From Nautilus pompilius (taxonomy: Eukaryota; Mollusca; Cephalopoda; Nautilida; Nautilidae), in NCBI GenBank assembly GCA_018389105.1, contig JACATO010000095.1, forward strand, positions 1,051,501 to 1,115,500: 64,000 bases of DNA, written 5' to 3'. Below the pieces are notes generated by a model, which saw only the letters and a program-made list of their open reading frames with translations, had not been told where the DNA came from and made no database searches. The first letter of the stretch is position 1. Every line of letters starts with the position of its first letter. Both the position numbers and the translations under genes were made by a program. Shown in pieces: positions 5,886 through 64,000 of this stretch.

Positions 5886-6085
5886 TCTGACATTAATAAA
5901 TCTAATGCTATTTGCACTTAAACTTTATCAATGTGAATTCACTGAAACAAAATGAAAAATTAAATAATCTAAAACAAAAGAAAATATTTTAATAGCAGCT
6001 TGAATGGTTAACTTCACAAACTAAACCACTCCATAAAAGGGAATAATCCAGTGCACAGTTTCTTTTTTTAAAAAAAATACTTTTA

Positions 6086-7154
6086 TTAGGTTGTTACAAA
6101 AGTTTTGTCATGTTTTTTTACCACAACAATGAGACTTCACATCGTTGCTGAAAAGTTTATTAACCAAAGTAAGTTCCATTACAATCAATACACTTCTGCC
6201 AACGAATTACCAGCACATTTATACCAATTTTAAAAAAATCTGGATTTCTGGAGTCGATAAACTGTTGGAAGACAGTTTCAATTGCTGCTTGGTTGGAGAA
6301 GGATTTCATATGGAGGAAGCTGTTGAGGTGTTTGAAAAGGTGGTAGTCTATTGGAGAAATGTTTGGTGAATAGACTGGTTGAGGGAGAACTTCGTATCCA
6401 ACACGTTCAGTTTCTGAAGAGTCATGAGGATGAGCATTGTCATGGAGCAAGATTGAGCCTCTTCGATTCACCAATGCTGGCTGTTGTTGGGAGAGCTTCT
6501 GATGAACAATGTTTAATTCACAACAGTACCTTTCAACTGTGATGGTTTCACCAGGTTTTGTTTCTTATGACAAGTGAAGAGCAGATCTCCAATCGATGAT
6601 TTTGCTGTTGTTCATTCAACTCATGAGGTACCCACTTGTCAAGCTGTTTCACCTTGCCTATTGTGTAAAGGTACAAGGAAACAGTTAGTGCTTACATCAA
6701 GCTCTCCATAAATTTCTTGCACTATTTTTCTTGGACTGGCTTCAACTGAGGCTTTCAGACGGTCGTCATCACAGCTGGAAGGACATCCACTATATTCCTT
6801 ATCTTCGAGACTCACATCTCCTGATCAAAAATTTGCAAACCATCCTTGTACTGTGTGCTCCTTTGCTGTGTCCTCACTCCATGCTGGCTTAATGTTATGA
6901 GTTGCTTGGCCTGGTTTGAACTCATGAAGCAAAATGGCACAAAAAACTTTTCTATCCGTGCTTCACTCGGAATGCTGAAACAAATATCCATTTTATGATT
7001 TTTAAAAATGTAGGTTTTTTTTTCCATAATGTGTGCCGAAGCAAATGCTACAAAACAATATTTAAGTTATCTACATACACCTTCACAAGCATGCAAAAAA
7101 TGAACCCCAAATTAACATAATATAAAAACCGATAAAACTTTTGTAATGATCTAA
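6086..7154 (-). mobile_element. mariner-like element, inactive
   Basis: Inverted ends match well: TTAGGTTGTTACAAAAGTTT on the left and TTAGATCATTACAAAAGTTT on the right read in reverse. TA duplications flank both ends (6084-6085 and 7155-7156). The length, 1,069 bp, is about 200 bp short of a typical 1.3 kb mariner, so the copy has internal deletions. The transposase lies on the minus strand and is broken. Both ends remain intact, so the element could once have been mobilised in trans. Confidence 0.93.
6160..6990 (-). pseudogene. mariner transposase, broken
   Basis: The C-terminal third is still open (6160-6474, 104 codons). It shows the mariner catalytic motifs: LLHDNAHPH, then YSPNISPIDYHLF, then a W-KCID-G-YF ending. 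The spacing from the Asp of HDNA to the Asp of PIDYHLF is 30 residues instead of the 34 usual for D,D34D mariners, so four codons are lost between these catalytic residues. Upstream, remnants of the N-terminal HTH part (CAILLHEFK-like and TVQGWF-like stretches, about 6840-6950) are readable only across frames with stops. The family cuts and pastes DNA at TA sites in the nucleus; this copy cannot make an active enzyme. Confidence 0.9.
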
Positions 7155-7156
7155 TA

Positions 7157-15893: not shown

Positions 15894-17054
15894 TTATTCA
15901 ATTTTGGCTATGAAGTATATGCACTTGTACATTAAGAAATTGATAAAAAATAAATCTAGAAGTTAGTTCTAGGGGGAAAAAAGATTAAAATTTGATTTTT
16001 ATTTTTACTTCTTTCTCACTTTCTTTTTTTTTTTTTTTGTTTGTTTGTTTAACCATTTTAATGAACCACAGATCTGGAGAATGTTGAAAATATATAATAT
16101 ACACAGTACAGTGCTATTGTTATTGCATGATTCTATCACATTATCTTTTCATTATTAGCATGCACCATTTTCATTAAAATATTGCATTGCTATTTTATAC
16201 TAATGCATTGTTGTCCCTTTTGGGGGGGATTTACTCACTTTTTGAAAAAATAAAATGAAGTAAACATATGGCTACAAATTTCTGCATTATCTATAAAATA
16301 TGAAAAGCATTTCATGCATTTAATACTCACAGTAGATCTTATACATATATAAGTTATTTATTTCAAACTCATTAGTGATTTGTATTAAAAGATGGAAGAT
16401 TTCAAAGTATTGTATATTAAACAATAAAAAAAAGTTAAAAAAACCTTGTTAGATTGATCTTATGACTGACTAAGTGCTTCCCCATCAGTGTATCATTAAG
16501 TTAGTTGTTAATGACCAGTCTAGAAACAAGAGAGGGCAAGTCAACTAGGATAATAAGGTAAGGATTTCACAATTCAGTTTTCAACTTCATCAGAGTACAA
16601 AACAAGAGAGTCAGGGTACCATCATTCTAATTCTGCAGCAGCCACTATCTGCAGTATGCCTGATTTTCTACATATAGCAGCTGTAGTTGATTAAATATAC
16701 CACGTGACAGCCAGTAACCTTTATTCTTATGGCTCCATCATCCAACAGTTGTCTGCCATCACATAAATATCAGCTAAAATTTCTTCACCACCAAAAGAAA
16801 CTCAATTTTTTTTTAAAAAAATAAAAGTGAAATAGTCAACAGATAAGTTAATTAGTATAACAAATATTCCATGTTTAATTGTAACACTTAAATCCATCTC
16901 ATAATAAATCTGATAATTAATGATAAATGTAGCTAAAAATCTTAGACTGAATCCTTGCTTTTGCTTCTTCATTTAATTGAATTAATTTATCTAAGATGTC
17001 CAGCTGCTTGTATTAAATTAACTATACAATACATACCACATCAGTTTTTATCTT
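15894..17054. other. unassigned AT-rich DNA
   Basis: Contains a T run near 16024 and many short A/T runs. No gene or repeat boundary that I can support. Confidence 0.5.
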
Positions 17055-17160
17055 ACTCATACCACCTGGGATGTATCTGCACCCCAGCCTAGAACCACTA
17101 GTATTTGTCTTGAACTGGCTGTGTATTTAGTCAACACCCTCATAATGCTAATGCCTATGA
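17055..17160 (-). repeat. interspersed repeat B, copy 2
   Basis: In reverse orientation it shows the repeat B middle and right end: 'ACCACTAGTATTTGTCTTGA', 'TATTTAGTCAACACCCTCAT' and 'GGGATGTATCTGCACCCCAG', the complement of landmarks in the plus-strand copies. A second, partial right-end piece with 'CACCCCAGGTGGTATACAG' follows at about 17241-17259 in the plus sense. Confidence 0.65.
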
Positions 17161-17929
17161 TCGAACCTACATGGATTTATCATTACAAAAAGTTATTTCA
17201 ATGAAAAAACTACTGTCACAACCCCAGTATGGTACAAACGCACCCCAGGTGGTATACAGTAGATACAAGTCTTTTTTTTTAAATCTAAAATGTTTGGTGT
17301 TTTTTTAAACCTATTTCATTATTTTTCATCTATCATTTGTAAAGCAGCACAATATTTACTTACAGGTGTATAGTGTATCATGATAGTTACCTGTTCCTTT
17401 CAAATGTAACTGCATTTGTTTGCTGGTATTTAGACTAAAAAAAAAAATATTTCTTTTTAAATCAGATACAGCTACTGATGCTTCGTACTTCCCAAAATTT
17501 CATCATTTAGGATTTTCCTATGTTTCTAGTAACTAGATCCTATAAGAAATGGCAGGTGATAAATGCCTAAATTAAATAAATAGCATAATCTTCGATCGTA
17601 AAACTATATATTTTTTGACCAAATGTATTCTCAACTTTATTCTAACCCCCCAGACTTTTTAGTGCTTTCAAAAATGGCTGTGCACATGAACAATGATTTT
17701 TTTCAAACAATATGTAAAAATATATTTATAATTATTAATAAATATTATAGTAAACCAATTTTTTTTTCAGAGAAAGTAGGAAATAACTCTGAAATCTACC
17801 AATTAACCCCAAAACTAAAATAAGATTAGAGTTGTGGTAGAAATAAAACATTTTCTCCCTTTTATTGTTAATTAGAGGGCATTATTTGACTCTCTACACT
17901 ACCCCTCAAATCTGTATGGGAAATAGACT
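17161..17929. other. unassigned AT-rich DNA
   Basis: Short T and A runs; no readable gene. A 66-codon plus frame at 17623 is low-complexity and has no recognisable domain. Confidence 0.5.
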
Positions 17930-26980: not shown

Positions 26981-29879
26981 TTACTTATCCAATGAATACA
27001 AAGATTTATCCTCAACGGTATTTTTTTTTCGTTTATTCAGTTATCACAACCACGACCACTGAAAGTTACTCCTCTCATCTTTCATTTTATCTGCCATTAT
27101 GGAAAAAAGAGTGTGTGAAACTTCAAAATAAGTTCTCTCATAAAATTTTTGTCAAGTTATCTGCTCTTGGGCAATTCAAATCAGAACAAATATACATTGT
27201 TTACATAAATGCAAGGAAAATAACATGTTAAGAAGAGATTTTGCTTGCTTGCATACACACAACAAAATTTAAAACTAATTTTAGATATGAGAAGGAAATG
27301 TTATATACAACTAGATAGACATTAATTTTGTCATGTATAACATACAACTATGGCATCTACCATCTAACAATATGAAAGGCCAAGATTGGGTAAATAGTTA
27401 TGGTTGCTGCTGCTTCACTTGTCAGGTGTTGTGGTGTAATTCCATTCACTCCCAATCATTTTTCTGATCTCTAATATTGTAATAGTAGTTTTTTTTTGCT
27501 CCCAGCATCAATAATCATCTCAAATGCCTCTCTAAGAGCAACAACAGGTGGCACTTATAATCATTATAGTTTTTCTCTTAGGATTATTTCACAAGTGATC
27601 CAAAAAATTCTTAAATGATTAAATTAAGGATGACTAGCAATAGAATGGGAATGATAATCTCAATTCTCAGGTGAGAGTGCTGTATCATAGATACAGAAAA
27701 TCCATTTGATTACACAAATTATACATATATGAAAAATTCCATACTTTTAGTCTCTTTTTTTTTTTCTCCTATTTTCTTCACAAAAGTTTGTTGCTGACTC
27801 AGAAGCTCATGCTATTACTTTATACAAACACTATACATGTATAATAAATTGTGGTATTTTTTAAAACCCTTAGGCTGCAATGAACATAAATTTATGCAAG
27901 CATAGGGAACTGGATGTACATATATATATATATGCAGTATTATTCCTGCCATTACTCTAGTTTCCTGCAAGGGGAGCATCACCTGTGGGAATCAGGTGGC
28001 TAAGCAGAACACATGACCACCCATGCAGGCCTCTGTATCTTAGTCATGTCTGACCCACTATGGATACTCCATGTCCCTCAACCTCTCACAGCAAACCAAG
28101 GTGTAAACTATGAGAAAATTTGACCTCCTAGAGAGTAATGAAAAAAACTTATAGAACCGAGTGATGAAAGAGCTGAAGAAGTAGGGTTGCAGTTCATGAT
28201 TGTAATACGCTCAGGAAAACAAACAGGAACAGAACATGACGACCCTAGTGCACACTCACCCATATCCCACACCCAAGCCTCTGTCAGTCTCGACATGAAC
28301 TTTCACACTTCACCAAGCAGACAAAAGGGTAGATATCTGATTTCGTTTTACATTTTCCCTATTTCTGCATGCATATCTTTAATTTTGTAAAAAAAAAAAT
28401 TTTTCAATTTGTTTTCATTGCACATATGGTGAGTATTGGAGATTACAATCAATTCAGCTTAAGGATTAATAAATAAAGACGGCTAATTAACATACAGATT
28501 ATTTTGTCATCTTTCCTACACAAGCCGACTGATATATGGATATAAAAAGAGTTAATCTGATGAGGTTCATTTAGTACATTTTTTCCACATATTGCATTAT
28601 CTGTACTTTAAAAAACCAAGAAAACTAAACAAAAATTACTTGAGATTTAGATTAATTATGCTTATCCTTAATAACAGAAAACGGTGATTAAACTATCAAG
28701 TTTGGTTTCCATGTACTAACCAATTCCTTACTCTGGAAAAACAGTAGGGAGCCAATTAGTTTTGACATCACTTTTTTTTTAGTATCACTGTATAACATTA
28801 AGTAAAAACATTTCTAAAAATATTTAACTGCATATATTTAAAAAATAGTGTCTTATCTTGCAAAAAAAATAGCATTACATTTTTATTCTTTATTAAGAGT
28901 TTTGATTTAATTTTGCTTTGTTTTTTTTTAAAGAATGTTGGGCAGGTGAAAAAAAAAACAAAAAAGCTCCAACTTGATTGGCACTATGGCAACCAGGCGA
29001 AATTCTCAAGCCACAATGGCGTGATGACTTAAGTTCTGTCATATTAATCGAAAAGACCTCACATCAGGATTTTTTTTTTTTTTTTTTTAAAATATTCACT
29101 AACAGTCTGCTTGGTTAACTGATTCACCAATTAACACTTCTGCATGTGTGTTGCAGTCTGAGGAGACAAACAAACAAGTGGATTGTAATTTTGATGACTA
29201 CAGTAGCCATTTTCCTCTGTTTCAAGAGCATACAGAAAAAGAGAAAAACTGAACAAAAGTTAACTCAGAAACACTTGAATCCATATTTGTAATGCAATCA
29301 CATGAGTTTATTTAATTGGAAGTAAATGTTGCCAGGAAGATAACTTCTACTTAGTCAAGAAAAGCCCCAACATGCTTCCTTCAGAAACAGAAAGCATGTT
29401 CCTATATCAAGTGACAGAAGATTTAAATTAACTTGCTAAACTAACAATATGGTAAACCCAGCATGACTAATCCATCATGTGATTGCAGGCAAACAACCAT
29501 AGAAGATTGATTCAACACTGCTTGACTTACTGTAAATGTTCAAAAAAAAAACTATACATCACTTTCCTATCCAATGTCTGCAAGCAAATGATAGTTAGTG
29601 AAACTGCAGCCACTGTGTTAATATGCTGCTGCCTTATCTTCAGTGTACCATCGCTGATACCAGCACCACCATGTAATAGCTATCTAGATAATCAGCCCAT
29701 TTTTAAACATATGGTTGCCACCACAAAAATGTGTGTATGCATACATCTCAATCACACACACATCTCCTTAATATCACTTTTGCATAATTAAAAATGCACA
29801 AAGATAAAGCAAAAGTACACAGCCTATTCATCTTATTTAAAAAGAAGTAATATATTTACCATTATTTATTTATTCTTTC
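26981..29879. other. unassigned AT-rich DNA
   Basis: About 2.9 kb. Contains a (TA)n run at 27919-27933 and T runs near 27757 and at 29070-29088. A patch at about 27960-28110 is richer in G+C and has a tRNA-like 'CAGGTGGCTAAGCAGAAC' stretch, which could be another SINE head, but no body is visible. No gene supported. Confidence 0.45.
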
Positions 29880-30520: not shown

Positions 30521-30819
30521 TGCCAGTGCCTAATGATGCTTCTGGAATCACTTTAAAAATAGAAAAAATATATTTGAGTTTAAATAAATAAAATGGATTT
30601 CAGAATGACAGAATTTATTTTATTTTAAAATTAATTTTACGCAAATTTAAGTCACTAATGTTACCCCATACTGTACTTGTTTGATAATCCTCAAAGATGT
30701 ATTATGTTCCTTCTATTATAATCTGCAGTAATTTTAAATATGCACTCATTTGTGTCACAATATTTTTTTCCGATTTTTGTGGTGGGTTTGACCTGCCACT
30801 AATTGTTCATAATATATAT

Positions 30820-31500
30820 ATATTGCCCATGATGTACTTTACAGAGGCTGTCGATGACTTTCTAGATTGCTGGATGTAGCATTCCCAATTCTGCCTGACT
30901 TGATGCAATACCTCTGTGTGGTTGCTGGTCCTGTCCTCTTTGTTGAGGACCCTTTTGTACAATGACCACATTTCCAAGAGAAACATTGTTGAATGTCTTC
31001 CATTTCCTTGGCGAGCTGGTTGGCCTACAAAATAATCTTCAAACCAAGCAGTGGCTGCAGTTCTTCTGGGAGCTCCATCACCATTGTGTCTATGGCCTTG
31101 TCCAAGTCTGTGATAGGTACAAATACGAGTGCAGTGATCATTTTTCAACATCGTTGTTATACCTGCGGGACAGTTGCAATTCACTGTTGTGTTTTTTTGT
31201 ATATTTTGATTAAAGTGAAAAAAAAAAAATCCATTTTTACGCACATCAGGAAAGGTAATCCTTACCACCATGAATATTTTAGTTTCAAAATCACACGAAA
31301 CAGATTCTGGAGAAACTTCAGGTTCAGCTGGTTTAATAAGTTGGAAGACTCCTTCATATGTATTCCTTTGCTTGTTAGGGAGCAAAGCATCAAATACTGG
31401 ATGAAAACACCATTGAATCTTTCTGCAGTATCACGTATAGTTACAAAAATAATACTGGCATGAGTCCAAATGTCCCCACAACATATCAGTTATCAATGCC
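30820..31500 (-). pseudogene. MULE-type (MuDR) transposase, decayed
   Basis: A 192-codon open minus-strand frame (30807-31385) holds most of it. Motifs in order: ALLPNKQRNTYEGVFQLI spanning the frame start, PEVSPESVSCDFE, HFNQNIQKN (family FHL-QN-QK), WFEDYFVGQPARQG, and EMWSLYKRVLNKEDRTSNH. After this the frame shifts, and the closing block reads HPAI-stop-KVIDSL, where the family has HPTIWKFIDGL, so a Trp codon has become TAG. Proteins of this type in invertebrates often carry FLYWCH zinc fingers N-terminally; none is visible here. The family is a DDE-type nuclear transposase. The central part between QK and WFED is scrambled. I see no terminal repeats. It lies about 300 bp from the nested repeat B/SINE. 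Confidence 0.85.
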
Positions 31501-31844
31501 ACGTGGTGGCTTTTTCATGTTAAGAAAAAGAAAAATGCTTTTTATATTGCTTCATTTTTTAAAAAAAAAAAAAATAGAATATAACTTAAACACTTTTAAA
31601 CAAAACTCTTAATAAAATCTCACTAAATTCCAGAATAAAATCAACATGTGCAGCATATAGACAAACTTGTTCTTGTTTTGTTTCAGAGTTCCATCCTCAT
31701 GTCAATACATTTAATTGTTTACTGAGGCTCGATTTGTTTGTTTTTTAGTCATCAATAAAGGGTCATTTCATCAGCAGTCTGTCCGGACTCACTCTTACCA
31801 TTGCCTGTATCAGACTTCCACAAATAACCCTAACTACACATCTG

Positions 31845-57150: not shown

Positions 57151-57153
57151 TAA

Positions 57154-57273
57154 CACTGGTCAACAAGTATTTTTCATCAAGCATATGTCAAGGTGTACTT
57201 AGTGTAGTTTTTAATGCTGATTTCAAATATACAATTAGTTTTTTGACATCACGTACAGTTTTCAAGATGAGAA
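57154..57273 (+). repeat. left terminal inverted repeat
   Basis: Pairs with the right repeat at 58591-58721. The outer 13 bases are identical; inner similarity is patchy with small insertions. Confidence 0.75.
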
Positions 57274-57399
57274 AGTTTTTTGGTTGTAGCTCATGCATTA
57301 TATAGAAATTCCAATTAATGACGCGTATACATGTATTTCATTTATATCATGGAAACATACCTTTAAAATAAACTACATTATTCATTGCTGCATAGTTCA

Positions 57400-57517
57400 G
57401 ATGCAATATTTCGTCATCTTAAATTAACCAATCAAGTTTTGTCTGATGAAATAGGTATTCAACATCTCAAATTGTCCAGTCATAATTGGTCTGATGAAAT
57501 ATTTCATCATCTCAAAT
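57400..57517 (+). promoter_or_regulatory. three tandem ~45-bp motifs upstream of the element's start codon
   Basis: Three degenerate units start at 57400, 57444 and 57492. They share GATGAAATA...TCATCTCAAATT; the third holds the perfect 14-bp palindrome ATGAAATATTTCAT (57494-57507). They end about 55 bp before the ATG at 57574. Possible roles are binding sites for the element's own protein or promoter sites; neither is shown by the sequence. Confidence 0.5.
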
Positions 57518-57573
57518 TCAATATAAGTACAACTGTTTGTATCTATTTCCTTACTTGTTTTACAGTGTTAACA

Positions 57574-58416
57574 ATGTCAAGACAGTGTAGAAATCCTCCT
57601 GATGTGTTTTGTTATGTCTGACTTTCACTTCATGCCATTGCCTATGAAAGATACTCATGGAAAATATATAGAGATTTAAAAGTCATTGGAATGTTAATGG
57701 GAATGCAGTCAGGTTTCACTAAATACTGTTGTTTCTTGTGTCTATGGGATAGTCGGGCAACTGACAGACATTATTCGGAATCAAACTGGCAGACAAGAAC
57801 ATCATACCAGCCAGGACTGTCTAGCGTCAAGAATACACCTCTTGTAGATCCATGTAATGTCCTATTGCCTCCTTTGCACATAAAGCTTGGACTGATGAAA
57901 CAGTTTGTAAAGACACTAGGGAAGAGAAATGCCAGAGGGTTTGAGTATATTGTAGAAAAGTTTCCCAAAATCACACAGGTGAAGTTGAAAGAGGGTATCT
58001 TTGTCGAACCCCAAATTAGAGAAGTACTCAAAGATGTCAACTTCAAGACAACACTGGATGAACTGGAACTGCCTGCCTGGAATGCTTTCAATTGGATCTG
58101 TGAGAATTTCTTGGGCAACAAGAAGGCAATGGACTACAAGGATGGCATCAAGAATCTTCTGAAATGTTACTCAGCAATGGGTTGTCGCATGTCACTGAAA
58201 GTTCACTTCTTGGACTCCCATCTGGATTTCTTCGCAGATAACCTTGGAGCAGTGTCTGATGAACATGGTGAAAGATTTCACCAGGACATTAGTGCTGTGG
58301 AGAAACGGTACCAAGGCTTCTGGAATGACAGTATGCTGGCTGACTACTGCTGGACACTTTACCGTGATCAACCAGATCAGGAACACCGCAGGAAATCCGA
58401 ATCACAATGTTTCTAA
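57574..58416 (+). pseudogene. uncharacterised transposon-linked protein, internally deleted
   Basis: From the ATG at 57574 the frame reads MSRQCRNPPDVFCYV, then TGA at 57619-57621, then continues open for 265 codons to the stop at 58414-58416. The N-terminal 15 residues and the C-terminal part both match, as I recall them, the start and end of a protein family found in many copies in invertebrate genomes and labelled uncharacterised. The long middle is missing, so the TGA lies at or beside a deletion junction; a single lost base in a Cys codon (YVC) would explain it. Visible motifs in the open part: KVIGMLMGMQSGFTKYCCFL then CLWDSR (Cys pairs, possible metal site), LPPLHIKLGLMKQFVK, KEGIFVEPQIREV, WICENFLGN, MGCRMSLKVHFLDSHLDFF and VSDEHGERFHQDI. 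A shorter product could start at the ATG at 57691 (241 aa). Function unknown; a transposase-derived C-terminus is my inference. Confidence 0.8.
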
Positions 58417-58503
58417 CTCTGTTGTTCTAACTTTGTCTGTTTTGTCTGACCCATTTTTTTGTGTATTCACTCTTTGTAGAATGATAGTGATGATTTTTAA
58501 CTC

Positions 58504-58509
58504 AATAAA
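58504..58509 (+). terminator. polyadenylation signal AATAAA
   Basis: Canonical hexamer 88 bases after the stop codon of the element's open frame and inside the element. Its position fits a transcript ending inside the right terminal part. Chance occurrence in AT-rich DNA is possible. Confidence 0.4.
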
Positions 58510-58590
58510 CTCATTTACTTTCTAAAAATAAATATGTCCTTATTTATTACGTTAATGATTTCATATATACAAATATGTAAATATTTGCAT

Positions 58591-58721
58591 GTATCTACTG
58601 AAAAACTGATACGTGCTGCATACAAATGGAGTGAAATTTTGAAATCAGCATGAAAAATTTGTCTAAAAAAGTTGGTTTGTATTCATAATGAGTATAATAC
58701 ATTTAATTTTGTTGACCAGTG
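58591..58721 (+). repeat. right terminal inverted repeat
   Basis: Reverse-complement partner of 57154-57273, ending TTGTTGACCAGTG. It is slightly longer than the left arm because of small insertions. Confidence 0.75.
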
Positions 58722-58724
58722 TAA

Positions 58725-60194
58725 TAAAATGAATGAATAAATGAAATAAAACTGGCATTGCTTACCAGTAGTAATAATGTAAATCAATTCAAAAATCATA
58801 TCAATAGTGTTTTCTTTCATAGGCACTATGTATAATTCATAAACAATGAACTAGTTAAATGGTATTTATTTTATTCTCATTGTTGACCATTTGGGACCAT
58901 AACAATTATTTGAGGTATGCTCCAAGTTAATATATTAAAATTTTACAAATAAAATAAACAAACAAGATTTCCATTATAACAGCTGAAATTTACCAACAGG
59001 TGACCACAAGGGTTTCTACTGAAAGCGATAATCCCATAATACCTCAAGTAAAGAAAAAACAACAAAACATCCTTTGAATCCATGCATCCACACGTTTGTC
59101 GCTAGGTGTCACATAACTTGGTAACGTGCCTGAACATAGCTTGGTCTTCAATGTCACTACTGCCCTGTAAAGACTACCATTGCATACATATAACTGACCC
59201 TATACTCAGTTCTCTACTGTATAACAACTCTTCCACTATTACTGGAAGATTCCATTTGTAAAGGCTACTATGCTGTCAACTGCAGAGTAACAACGAATGA
59301 TATTACTGATGTTAATGGTAGAACCAACATTATGTTTAGTGTAAATAAAATCAGAGGTTTGACCAATTAACATTTTTCCAATAATTAAGGTTCATTAATT
59401 TCATTATGACTCAAATAATATAACAATTTTTTTTTTAATTCTGGCTTTTTAGGAACCCCAATAATTTCAAATTTTATATTTTATTTGAATATTTTTTTCA
59501 TTCAACATGGACTTTTGTTTAGCTACAATGGTGAGGAAGCTAAAGGTAAATAAAATAAGGACATGAGAGCAGGCACATGGTGAAGGAATTATTTTATTAG
59601 AAAGCAACCAGTGGTACATTTTTCTGAAGGCTAGAAGCTATACCTATAATTTTGTATTTCATTTTCTTTTTTCTCCTTGCCTCCTGTGGATTAAACTGTA
59701 CCAAATTAAATCTCATCTTTAGCATGCAGGTAAATATACAAAGTTCAGGTTTATATATATATATATGTTAACATGAGACTTTATCTATTTTTAAGAGCAA
59801 ATTGTTTGATGAATTGTGAAAATATCTGAATATGTATATGAACTCATAACAGAGGGAGGATTCATGAGTGGCATAAACAGTTTATTGTAAAGAACCAACA
59901 GTTAAAGTATAAAATCTGGAGCTGGAAAAAAAACTCAGTGCTTAATGTAATGCATTGCAAGCAGCTCGTGCCAGACTGCTGATAGAAACAACTTGGAAGG
60001 TAGTAATCCGGAAGGCTGCCTGCCATCTGCCCCAATCAAATTTTCAGATGCCACCCATTCTATCCTTCTAGGCTGCTTCTCATAGTTGCAGTGGTGAGCT
60101 GACTTCATCACTTATATTATCTCTGCACTCCACCTAGCTGCTGATGGCACACCATATTATCCTAACACAGAGACATATGCATGATATACATACA
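58725..60194. other. unassigned AT-rich DNA
   Basis: (TA)n run at about 59752-59766. The part 59950-60180 is richer in G+C and may be an old repeat I cannot name. No gene supported. Confidence 0.5.
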
Positions 60195-60196
60195 TA

Positions 60197-61521
60197 CGAG
60201 GTCTGTCCAAAAAGAAACTGAACTTTTTAAAAAAAAAACAAATTTATTGCTTTACTTGCAATTTAATCAGACTTGTCTCCCCCAAAATAGTTTCCTCCAC
60301 TGTTGATACACTGCTCCCAACATTTTTATTCCAGTTTTGGAACACGTCCTGGAATGCGTTTTCAGGGATAGTGCGCAGTTCTCATAGCAAATTTTCTTCG
60401 ATCTCTTCTATTGCCTGAAATCAGTGACCTTTCAGATTGGATTTCAACTTTGGGAACAAAAAAAGATCTGCAGGGTTCAAATCCGGAGAGTAGGGCGGCT
60501 GGGGGATGAGAGTCATCTTGTGCTATGCCAAAAAGCCACGGATAAGGAGTGACGCTGAGCAGGTGCGTTGTCGTGGTGCAGCATCCAGGTTTTGTTTTTC
60601 CATGCCTCAGGCCTCCTTCACACTGCCTCTCTCAACCGCCTCAAGACATCCAAGTAAAACTCTTTATTGATCATCTGACCATGTGGAACAAACTCATGAT
60701 GATCAACACCATTCCAATCAAAAAAGACGATCAACATCACCTTCACATATGACTCTGACGTGCTTTTTTTGGTTGTGGCAATGATGATCCCACCCACTGT
60801 GACGACTGCCTTTTTGTTTCAACATCGTAGCCATAAACCCACGTTTCATCACCTGTTATGACACTTTTCAGAAAGCTTTCATAAGCATTGGAACGATCAA
60901 AGATCTCCTGACTATGACTATGACTCGGTTCTCTCTCTGTTCATCTGTCAGCAGACATGGCACAAGTTTTGCGGCTACACAATGCATGTTCAATTTTTCT
61001 TTTAAAATCATGTGGCACGAACTTTTACAGATGTCTACTTCTCCGGAAACTTCTCAGACAGTCAGGCGACGATTTCCATGGATCAGAGCACGCATTTTCT
61101 CAATGTGATCTTCATCTGTTGTCGTGGAAGGTCATCCAGATTTGGTATTATCTTTGGTGGATGTTCTTCCCAATTTGAAATGCTGGTACCACTCGTGACA
61201 TTACATACGGCTCAAACAATCCTACCCATAGGCCTGTTGCAACATTAGAAGTGTCTCCTTAATGGTTTTTCCAATTTGAAACAGAATTTCACACAAACAC
61301 GTTGCTCTTCAAGATCCTTCATTGTTTGACTTGCAACAAATCTCCAGGTGCACTAAACGTACATTCACTCTAGTGCATGTAGATTGATGACTAACTGACA
61401 GGGCGTGATGCGGCTATTATTAGACTGAAGGTCAAGGTCACCGATACACAGCACTGCAGTCACAAGCACGCTGCGCTGGCATGCTGTTTTAACAGTTCGG
61501 TTTCCTTTTGGACAGACCTAA
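60197..61521 (-). mobile_element. Mos1-like mariner element, inactive
   Basis: Inverted ends match closely: AGGTCTGTCCAAAAAGAAAC on the left and AGGTCTGTCCAAAAGGAAAC on the right read in reverse. TA flanks both sides (60195-60196 and 61522-61523). At 1,325 bp it is near the usual full length for mariner (about 1.3 kb), so unlike the copy at 6086 it decayed mainly by point changes and small indels. The transposase reads on the minus strand. Confidence 0.93.
60245..61322 (-). pseudogene. Mos1/GVQW3-type mariner transposase, broken
   Basis: The start ATG (61320-61322) opens MKDLEEQRVCVKFCFKLEK, the HTH-containing N-terminus. Later blocks, across several frames, read ENRVIVIVRRSLIVPM-like residues, then VITGDETWVYGYDVETKRQS and QWVGSSLPQPKKARQS (first catalytic Asp present in GDETW), FFDWNGVDHHEFVPHGQM, WMLHHDNAPA (second Asp) and PQPPYSPDLNPADLFLFPK (third Asp). 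From the second to the third Asp codon is 104 nt; restoring one lost base gives the 35-codon step of D,D34D mariners. The whole catalytic triad is therefore still legible, but stops and frameshifts prevent any product. The family is abundant in invertebrate genomes, where copies are often labelled GVQW3-like. Confidence 0.9.
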
Positions 61522-61523
61522 TA

Positions 61524-64000
61524 TATGTGTATATTTCAGTGTGTAATTAGTTGTTGTTCTGAACTCTGTTTTTGCTTTGTACTGCTCCCTTCCCAACCCC
61601 TCAGTCCTCTCCATTTTAACCACTGGAAAGATTCTCCTTAGTAGTGATTTTCTTAGCTGGAGAAAAGCAGTCTCCCTGCTCACTTTAACTTCACTGACTT
61701 TAGAAACAGCATGAGAACTCTGGCCGTGTGTGTAAAATAAATCATCAAGTGATTTATCTGAATTTCATGCATTTTCTTTTGTTATCAGTAGTACTTTATT
61801 TTTAATTATATCATCACAATGAAAAACATCAAAATAGAGATAACAATAAATAAATTCCATTTTCTTTAAATACAGAAAAATAGTTTTAAACTTCTCACAA
61901 ACACATTTACTAAAGGTATTAACCTCGTTATCACAATTTATTTTCTGCGCAGAAAACTAGAGGGAAAATTATTTGCGATGTGGGAAGACTTGTCTGCAAT
62001 TTAAATTATGAAAATGGGAAAACCTGTAATTATTTCTCCCTTTTCATTGCACTAAGCAAAGTTCAACACATGATTATTTCTTCCGTAGTAGCAACAAACT
62101 ATTTTAAAAGAACAAGCTTAGGTAATGATTGGACCATTATCCAGTACTTAGACTTCCTGCCTAAGTGATTTTTCCAGTCATGTAAACACTACTGGACACT
62201 GGTTCAGAATCTGTTAAATGGTATTGCCTCATCTACACATCAAGCCTGACAGCACTACACCGAATATGATGATATGGTGCTATTGGAATGCTTTGTGTAC
62301 AACACGGCAGGAATCTAAAACTTTCTACCATAACAATCTTGGAATTGGAGAAAACATGGTTTTGTGACATTCATTGGTTTTTCCACGATGCAAAAAACAT
62401 GTTCTGTAATAGTTGGCAAAGCAGAGCCTTTTCATGGCAATCGATAAGTCAACAGCAGTGGGAATACTAACCATAGACGCTATATTACGGTGACACGGCT
62501 AAGTGACAGTTTAAAAGATATTTTGTTACACTATTCCCCTGGCACCAGAATAAAGGGAAACATGGGGCAATTCAAGAGGGAGACTTCATTAGAACCCCTA
62601 CATTCCCACTAAAGGCAATCAAAGTATTGATTCATGTGGTGATAAAAAAAACAGACAGAGCAGCAGACTCACTGGAAGGTTCTGACATAAAAGTTAACAG
62701 CTTGTACACAGATTGTTATCTGCTGAATCACAATAATATAACAGTGTTATTTTAATATCTTAATTTCCAGGAGAAAACGCAAAACAACAACAGACTTCTT
62801 TATGCAAAAAAAAAAGACACTTAATAAATAAAAATAAACCTTGTAAGCATGAGAAATAGCTCATTTTGATAATATGTGGGTTGTTTGTGAGAAGCCATTG
62901 TTTAAAAGTAAAATCAAGTGCTGCATTATCAAATAAAAGAAGAACTATTGTTGTTGTTTGTTTTTTTTCATTGCTATCCTCTTTTTCTATGACAATGGGT
63001 AGAAAGAGAAAACTCGGAAACTGAAAATTTGGCATTTTGGTGAAGTTTTGTCTGGTTCAGGTATTTCCTCAACAAAAAAAAAAAAAAAAAAAAGGGGTGT
63101 GTCAAAGTTGTACCATAACAATAAAACAGTATGAGCATTTTGGCACTATTTCTTTCTGTATCACCAGTCAGGACTGCGCCAAAACAACCATAATTGAGTG
63201 TTTCCAGAATAAATTTTTACTATTATTTAAACTCCAATGTTTGATACAACAAATTTCTTCAAAAAAAAAATATTTACTATAAATAATTTTTAAGCAATTC
63301 AGTTAAAGTTTAGCATCTCTTGAAATTTTATTAAGTGATTTAACTGAATATTTTTAATATTAAAATTCTATTCACTGAAATAAAAAAAAAAATAGTCATA
63401 ATGAAACAAATTTTATTCTTAAATAACATAATTCTTCTAAAGTAGGAACAATGCAGACAAAAAAAGAGAAAAAAACAAGTTTTCTTAGAAGCCAAAAGAT
63501 TTCTCCATTTTTTCTAGTAACCATTAATAATTTTTAATTCATTTCTACAAATTTAGCACATATCTTAGACAAACAACAAAGCTAAATCAAACTGAAATCT
63601 GGAAATTCAAACGAGCAAAGTAGAACAGAATTTATCGACAACCTTTTCCAAACCACCAAAAGTTGTCTGGTATACGCCATTTTCAGGATTCATGGTTGTA
63701 AAACATTATTTGAGAATAAATTTTATATTTCCCCAATTTTTGCTTCTCCATTTAATGTCAGATACAGCCATACTCCAAAAAGACATTAAAGTGGATCTGC
63801 TCAATATCTCCACTAAAACATTTATGACCTTCAGAGTTGTGCGCGCTTTGTGCCTCAAGAAATAAACTGTAGAACTGTGCTTTATGATTCTGATGGCTTT
63901 CGGAAGAAAATGAAACAACATTTAGCTGCTTTTCGTTTGATTTTTTTTTTTAAATATTATCAACACAATCTTCTCTTTTAGAAAACATTAAACTTTGAAA
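61524..64000. other. unassigned AT-rich DNA
   Basis: Contains a 20-base A run at 63074-63093 followed by GGGGTGTGT. A 71-codon minus frame at 63706-63921 has a balanced residue mix but no recognised domain. No gene supported. Confidence 0.5.

Follow-up and report, generated by a model that had tools for sequence, protein, structure and literature searches.

What is the 1568-bp unit that lies in a 64,000-nucleotide stretch of the Nautilus pompilius genome (assembly GCA_018389105.1, contig JACATO010000095.1, positions 1,051,501 to 1,115,500; hereafter the window, with positions counted from its first letter), and what is the protein, P0001, encoded between its inverted ends? A preliminary description had proposed that the protein is the transposase, or a dedicated cargo, of an under-described group of DNA transposons. 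Our analysis suggests that the unit is a decayed cut-and-paste DNA transposon of the Chapaev3 type (CMC/CMCT), non-autonomous and with an internal deletion, a reading to which we give a probability of roughly 0.87, and that P0001 is most likely the transposase of this element and not a cargo. The boundaries of the unit are given by the following features:

57154-58721 (1568 bp): whole element, with perfect inverted termini, paired inner ends and TAA flanks
57154..57166, plus strand: left outer terminal inverted repeat CACTGGTCAACAA, 13 nt, from an exact-match search of the window
58709..58721, minus strand: right outer terminal inverted repeat, 13 nt, from the same search
57154..57268, plus strand: left end, pairing with the right end in inverted orientation with gaps, from alignment of the two ends
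58593..58721, minus strand: right end, inverted counterpart of the left end in the same gapped alignment
57151..57153: left putative target-site duplication TAA, preceded by A, in flanking sequence
58722..58724: right putative target-site duplication TAA, followed by T, in flanking sequence

The terminal sequences, CACTGGTCAACAA on the left and TTGTTGACCAGTG on the right, form inverted termini of the CAC..GTG kind, as in Chapaev3. Their outer 13 nt agree perfectly with each other, and an exact CACTGGTCAACAA is found in the window at two places only, 57154-57166 on the plus strand and 58709-58721 on the minus strand; where up to three mismatches are allowed there are 24 matches in the window, against a mean of 24.16 by chance. 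The window has a GC content of 33% and holds 310 perfect inverted 13-mer pairs no more than 3 kb apart, mostly consisting of A and T only (overlapping pairs counted separately). The outer 13-mer pair is therefore not rare by itself in such AT-rich sequence, and the case is the sum of ends, flanks and content. When the two ends were aligned, 86 identities were found in 131 columns, with 18 gap columns and a local score of 72, whereas 2000 mononucleotide-shuffled versions of the right end scored at most 41; leaving off the outer 13 nt lowers the score to 58, which again no shuffle in 2000 equalled (maximum 43). Ends of 170 nt score 73, compared with no more than 53 in 2000 random placements at 1568-bp spacing in this window, draws less than 1.6 kb from the element being left out, and the inner arms at 57199-57255 and 58610-58666 rank first among the 103 inverted pairs found in the window. 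The long inverted ends of the preliminary description are thus borne out, with perfect 13-nt termini and an inner pairing beyond chance.

Immediately outside these ends the sequence reads GATAA-element-TAATA, which confirms the TAA repeat noted earlier and places a 3-bp TWA triplet between A and T (A-TAA/TAA-T). The arrangement A-TWA/TWA-T with identical triplets at the same spacing occurs at 17 of 62,423 window positions, the element's own site counted. In the single copy examined, the TAA repeat is apparently a target duplication; no second copy of the element was found within the window.

Searches with the terminal sequences outside the window yielded no relative. In the viral_contigs collection a stricter terminal pattern had no match and a looser one matched seven contigs, four of which have one common sequence around the match and two another; we judged all seven unrelated, P0001 giving only tblastn matches of E 5.1 and 6.0. 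In the literature one or other of the two terminal strings occurs in 303 papers, and none of the 20 listed deals with a transposon by its title; the strings together with transposon and inverted-repeat terms gave no match.

Between the ends lie the following parts:

57410..57518, plus strand: about 2.4 copies of a 45-48-nt tandem repeat, spaced by 48 and 45 nt, inward of the left end and ahead of the ATG
57574..57618, plus strand: probable remnant of the transposase start, MSRQCRNPPDVFCYV, its ATG in frame with the long open reading frame
57622..58416, plus strand: open reading frame of 264 codons plus stop, encoding P0001, the predicted C-terminal half of a Chapaev3-type transposase
58504..58509, plus strand: polyadenylation signal AATAAA, downstream of the frame, with another at 58527

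The tandem motifs and the polyadenylation signal had both been reported before and are present. Within the tandem repeats, at 57492-57509, there is a perfect 18-nt palindrome, TGATGAAATATTTCATCA; our guess is that the repeats are possibly promoter sequences or transposase-binding sites. The frame has 264 codons, whereas the longest in 20 sequences simulated from the window with a first-order Markov model has 163. A start codon and an open frame had also been described: the ATG at 57574 is indeed in the frame of the long open reading frame, but a TGA at 57619-57621 follows after 15 codons, and P0001 starts at the next codon, its first internal methionine being residue 24. The 15-residue remnant before the stop ends in CYV, which, in the little that is left, would fit the beginning of a zinc-finger region; a 'Chapa' zinc finger is attributed to Chapaev3 (PMC4411706).

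The protein itself carries short motifs from which a transposase may be recognised:

57673..57675, plus strand: candidate second catalytic Asp, D18 in DLKV, probable from its position ahead of C(2)C
57730..57741, plus strand: C(2)C motif CFLC, residues 37-40, the sole C(2)C in P0001
57874..57879, plus strand: LH motif (PPLH), residues 85-86, the probable choice, another LH at residues 3-4 standing before C(2)C
58204..58221, plus strand: H(4)H motif HFLDSH, residues 195-200, the probable choice, a second H(4)H, HGERFH, standing at 215-220
58261..58272, plus strand: candidate final catalytic Glu, E214 or E217 in DEHGER, placed after H(4)H

C(2)C, LH and H(4)H, the three motifs described for Chapaev transposases, stand in order between the candidate Asp and the candidate Glu. 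These motifs are short, and LH and H(4)H are each found twice in P0001; in shuffled versions of the protein the pattern recurred in 28 of 20,000 under a strict definition and in 49 of another 20,000 under a looser one, the spacing limits of both having been chosen after the protein had been seen. As regards the DDE triad, P0001 has a candidate second D and a candidate final E, whereas this copy lacks the region in which the first D would be expected. Frame and motifs agree with the earlier view that the protein is a fragment, which we take to be the C-terminal half.

Profile and database searches were silent on this identity. Against Pfam, P0001 has no match listed at E up to 10, in searches where the HMMER filters drop most weak matches and a divergent transposase, for instance of the CACTA type, could escape notice; against NCBIfam it matched only FtsA, at E 0.04 and 13 bits compared with a cut-off of 409, which is not credible; and against PDB sequences there were three matches at E 0.11-0.68, all unrelated molecules. 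A single-sequence structure prediction was uninformative (mean pLDDT 33.3). Homologues were sought with peptide patterns, two to six short ones in each scan and hence weak tests, which selected 0 and then 54 stretches in viral_contigs and 12 and 39 stretches in the prokaryotic genome_contigs, none being confirmed by tblastn. P0001 had no tblastn match in phages, degenerate DNA patterns for two of its motifs had none in viral_contigs, and its motif strings had none in the literature. An animal element is not expected in viral, prokaryotic or phage collections, so a missing homologue there weighs little. Relatives of P0001 presumably appear in the annotations of many invertebrates as uncharacterised proteins, and one presumed homologue has 55% identity with P0001 over nearly its full length, which we do not count as evidence.

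Identity was judged from descriptions in print. The ends of Chapaev elements are CAC..GTG and the motifs of their transposase are C(2)C, LH and H(4)H, while every Chapaev3 element examined in PMC4079192 has a TWA duplication between A and T, empty sites confirming TWA. Because its CAC..GTG ends, A-TWA-T duplication and motif set all match what that paper reports of Chapaev3 (Merrow, Garfield and Conan), the element is most likely to belong there, an assignment made from published descriptions. It follows that the group need not be called under-described, since ends, duplication, context and motifs are those already printed for Chapaev3 (PMC4079192). The name goes back to Repbase Reports 2008, as cited by PMC4411706, which adopts an alternative classification and places Chapaev and Chapaev3 within a Transib superfamily. 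Chapaev overall is given duplications of 3-4 bp (PMC4079192) and CMCT of 2-5 bp (PMC12730594), wider ranges than the 3 bp, TAA, seen here.

The element differs from the named Chapaev3 families, with which it was compared by description, in that little remains of the N-terminal half of its transposase and an in-frame stop is present. Internal-deletion derivatives are in print for the families Garfield and Conan (PMC4079192), and Garfield_BM, a Chapaev3 consensus of 2,289 bp, encodes a 556-aa transposase in two exons (PMC4079192). Were a 556-aa parent assumed, the 15 + 264 residues that are left here would imply that about 277 codons (about 0.83 kb) are gone from what is now 1.57 kb. The element appears to have arisen by internal deletion from a parent of about 2.4 kb, an estimate that takes the Garfield_BM transposase size as its reference and ignores introns. 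That parent size fits Chapaev3 (PMC4079192). In the history that we propose, the transposase of the parent would bind the CAC..GTG ends and excise the element with a DDE active site, and insertion at an A-TWA-T target would duplicate TWA; a Chapaev3 transposase presumably made the insertion seen here, and this copy would have lost the middle of the gene, presumably including the first catalytic Asp. Since a TGA follows after 15 codons and most of the N-terminal half is missing, this copy is predicted to be incapable of transposing by its own means.

The alternative that survives best, which we nonetheless consider unlikely, is that the element belongs to some other CMC lineage, whether EnSpm/CACTA, Mirage or a sister group of Chapaev3 that has no name yet. 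The CMCT group shares C(2)C and H(3-4)H in the interval from second D to last E, so that Chapaev proper, Mirage, EnSpm/CACTA and Transib/RAG1 all resemble P0001 in this respect; CMCT ends are mostly of the CA..TG type, like those of the element, and some fungal EnSpm families combine CAC..GTG ends with 3-bp duplications (all PMC12730594). However, it is for Chapaev3 and Chapaev that the A-TWA-T duplication and the set of C(2)C, LH and H(4)H have been printed (PMC4079192). A more particular and rather improbable form of this idea is that the family is a separate animal CMC lineage, sister to Chapaev3, which annotation pipelines list as uncharacterised genes, and some truncated copies of which might yield a C-terminal fragment acting as a repressor of the complete transposase; the truncated copy here has its own promoter-like repeats and polyadenylation signal.

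A captured gene fragment carried as cargo, with the transposase encoded elsewhere, is very improbable and is not an equally good alternative to the transposase reading that the preliminary description had set beside it. A partial frame in a short unit would suit it, but P0001 has transposase-type motifs in order, and start codon, frame end and polyadenylation signal are placed as in a whole gene minus its middle. Of the two preliminary proposals it is therefore the transposase that the motifs support. We give next to no weight to a PHIS (PIF/Harbinger) element, to which the 3-bp TAA duplication might point because Harbinger-type elements also prefer TWA 3-bp targets; the CAC..GTG ends and the CMC motif set of P0001 speak against it, and no Pfam model was matched. 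Equally little weight goes to the idea that the two ends pair by chance in this AT-rich sequence, as the abundance of inverted 13-mers might suggest, given that the inner ends match too (0 of 2000 shuffles), that few positions offer such a target context (17 of 62,423) and that a transposase-like frame is bracketed by the ends.

Under the Chapaev3-type reading, the gain is a likely name for a protein that Pfam and NCBIfam did not recognise here; because proteins of the P0001 type go unrecognised, animal genomes may have copies of them that are mistaken for genes of the host. Apart from better repeat annotation little changes, since the transposon group, the rule for its targets and the derivatives formed by deletion have all been published (PMC4079192).

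The surroundings hold other repeats. In the region from 54 to 64 kb no host genes were recognised by Pfam on six read-through frames, which gave mariner remains near 60.2-61.5 kb and sub-cut-off matches. Two such weak matches in the window were rejected as chance: one to a viral matrix protein, in a read-through frame of 10 kb (E 0.0033; 17.4 bits, cut-off 25), and one to DUF3256, in another open reading frame (E 0.0096; 15.9 bits, cut-off 25). A decayed mariner-type element at 60184-61534 has 48-nt inverted ends at 83%, and matches HTH_48 and Transposase_1 above the Pfam cut-offs in two different minus-strand frames. A second, probable mariner-type element at 6084-7156, likewise decayed, has 33-nt inverted ends at 79%, with HTH_48 just above the cut-off and Transposase_1 below it in another frame; a 134-codon minus-strand open reading frame there has no Pfam match when taken alone, and the mariner frame near 6.2 kb is, we presume, reminiscent of cephalopod copies. 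At 30807-31463 there are overlapping open frames of 207 codons on the minus strand and 156 on the plus strand, without a Pfam match at E 0.01, flanked by an inverted pair at 28895-28937 and 31553-31595 that is rich in A/T runs. Finally, at 17046-17268, a 38-nt inverted pair, 71% complementary and with its arms 147 nt apart, has the common core CCACCTGGG.
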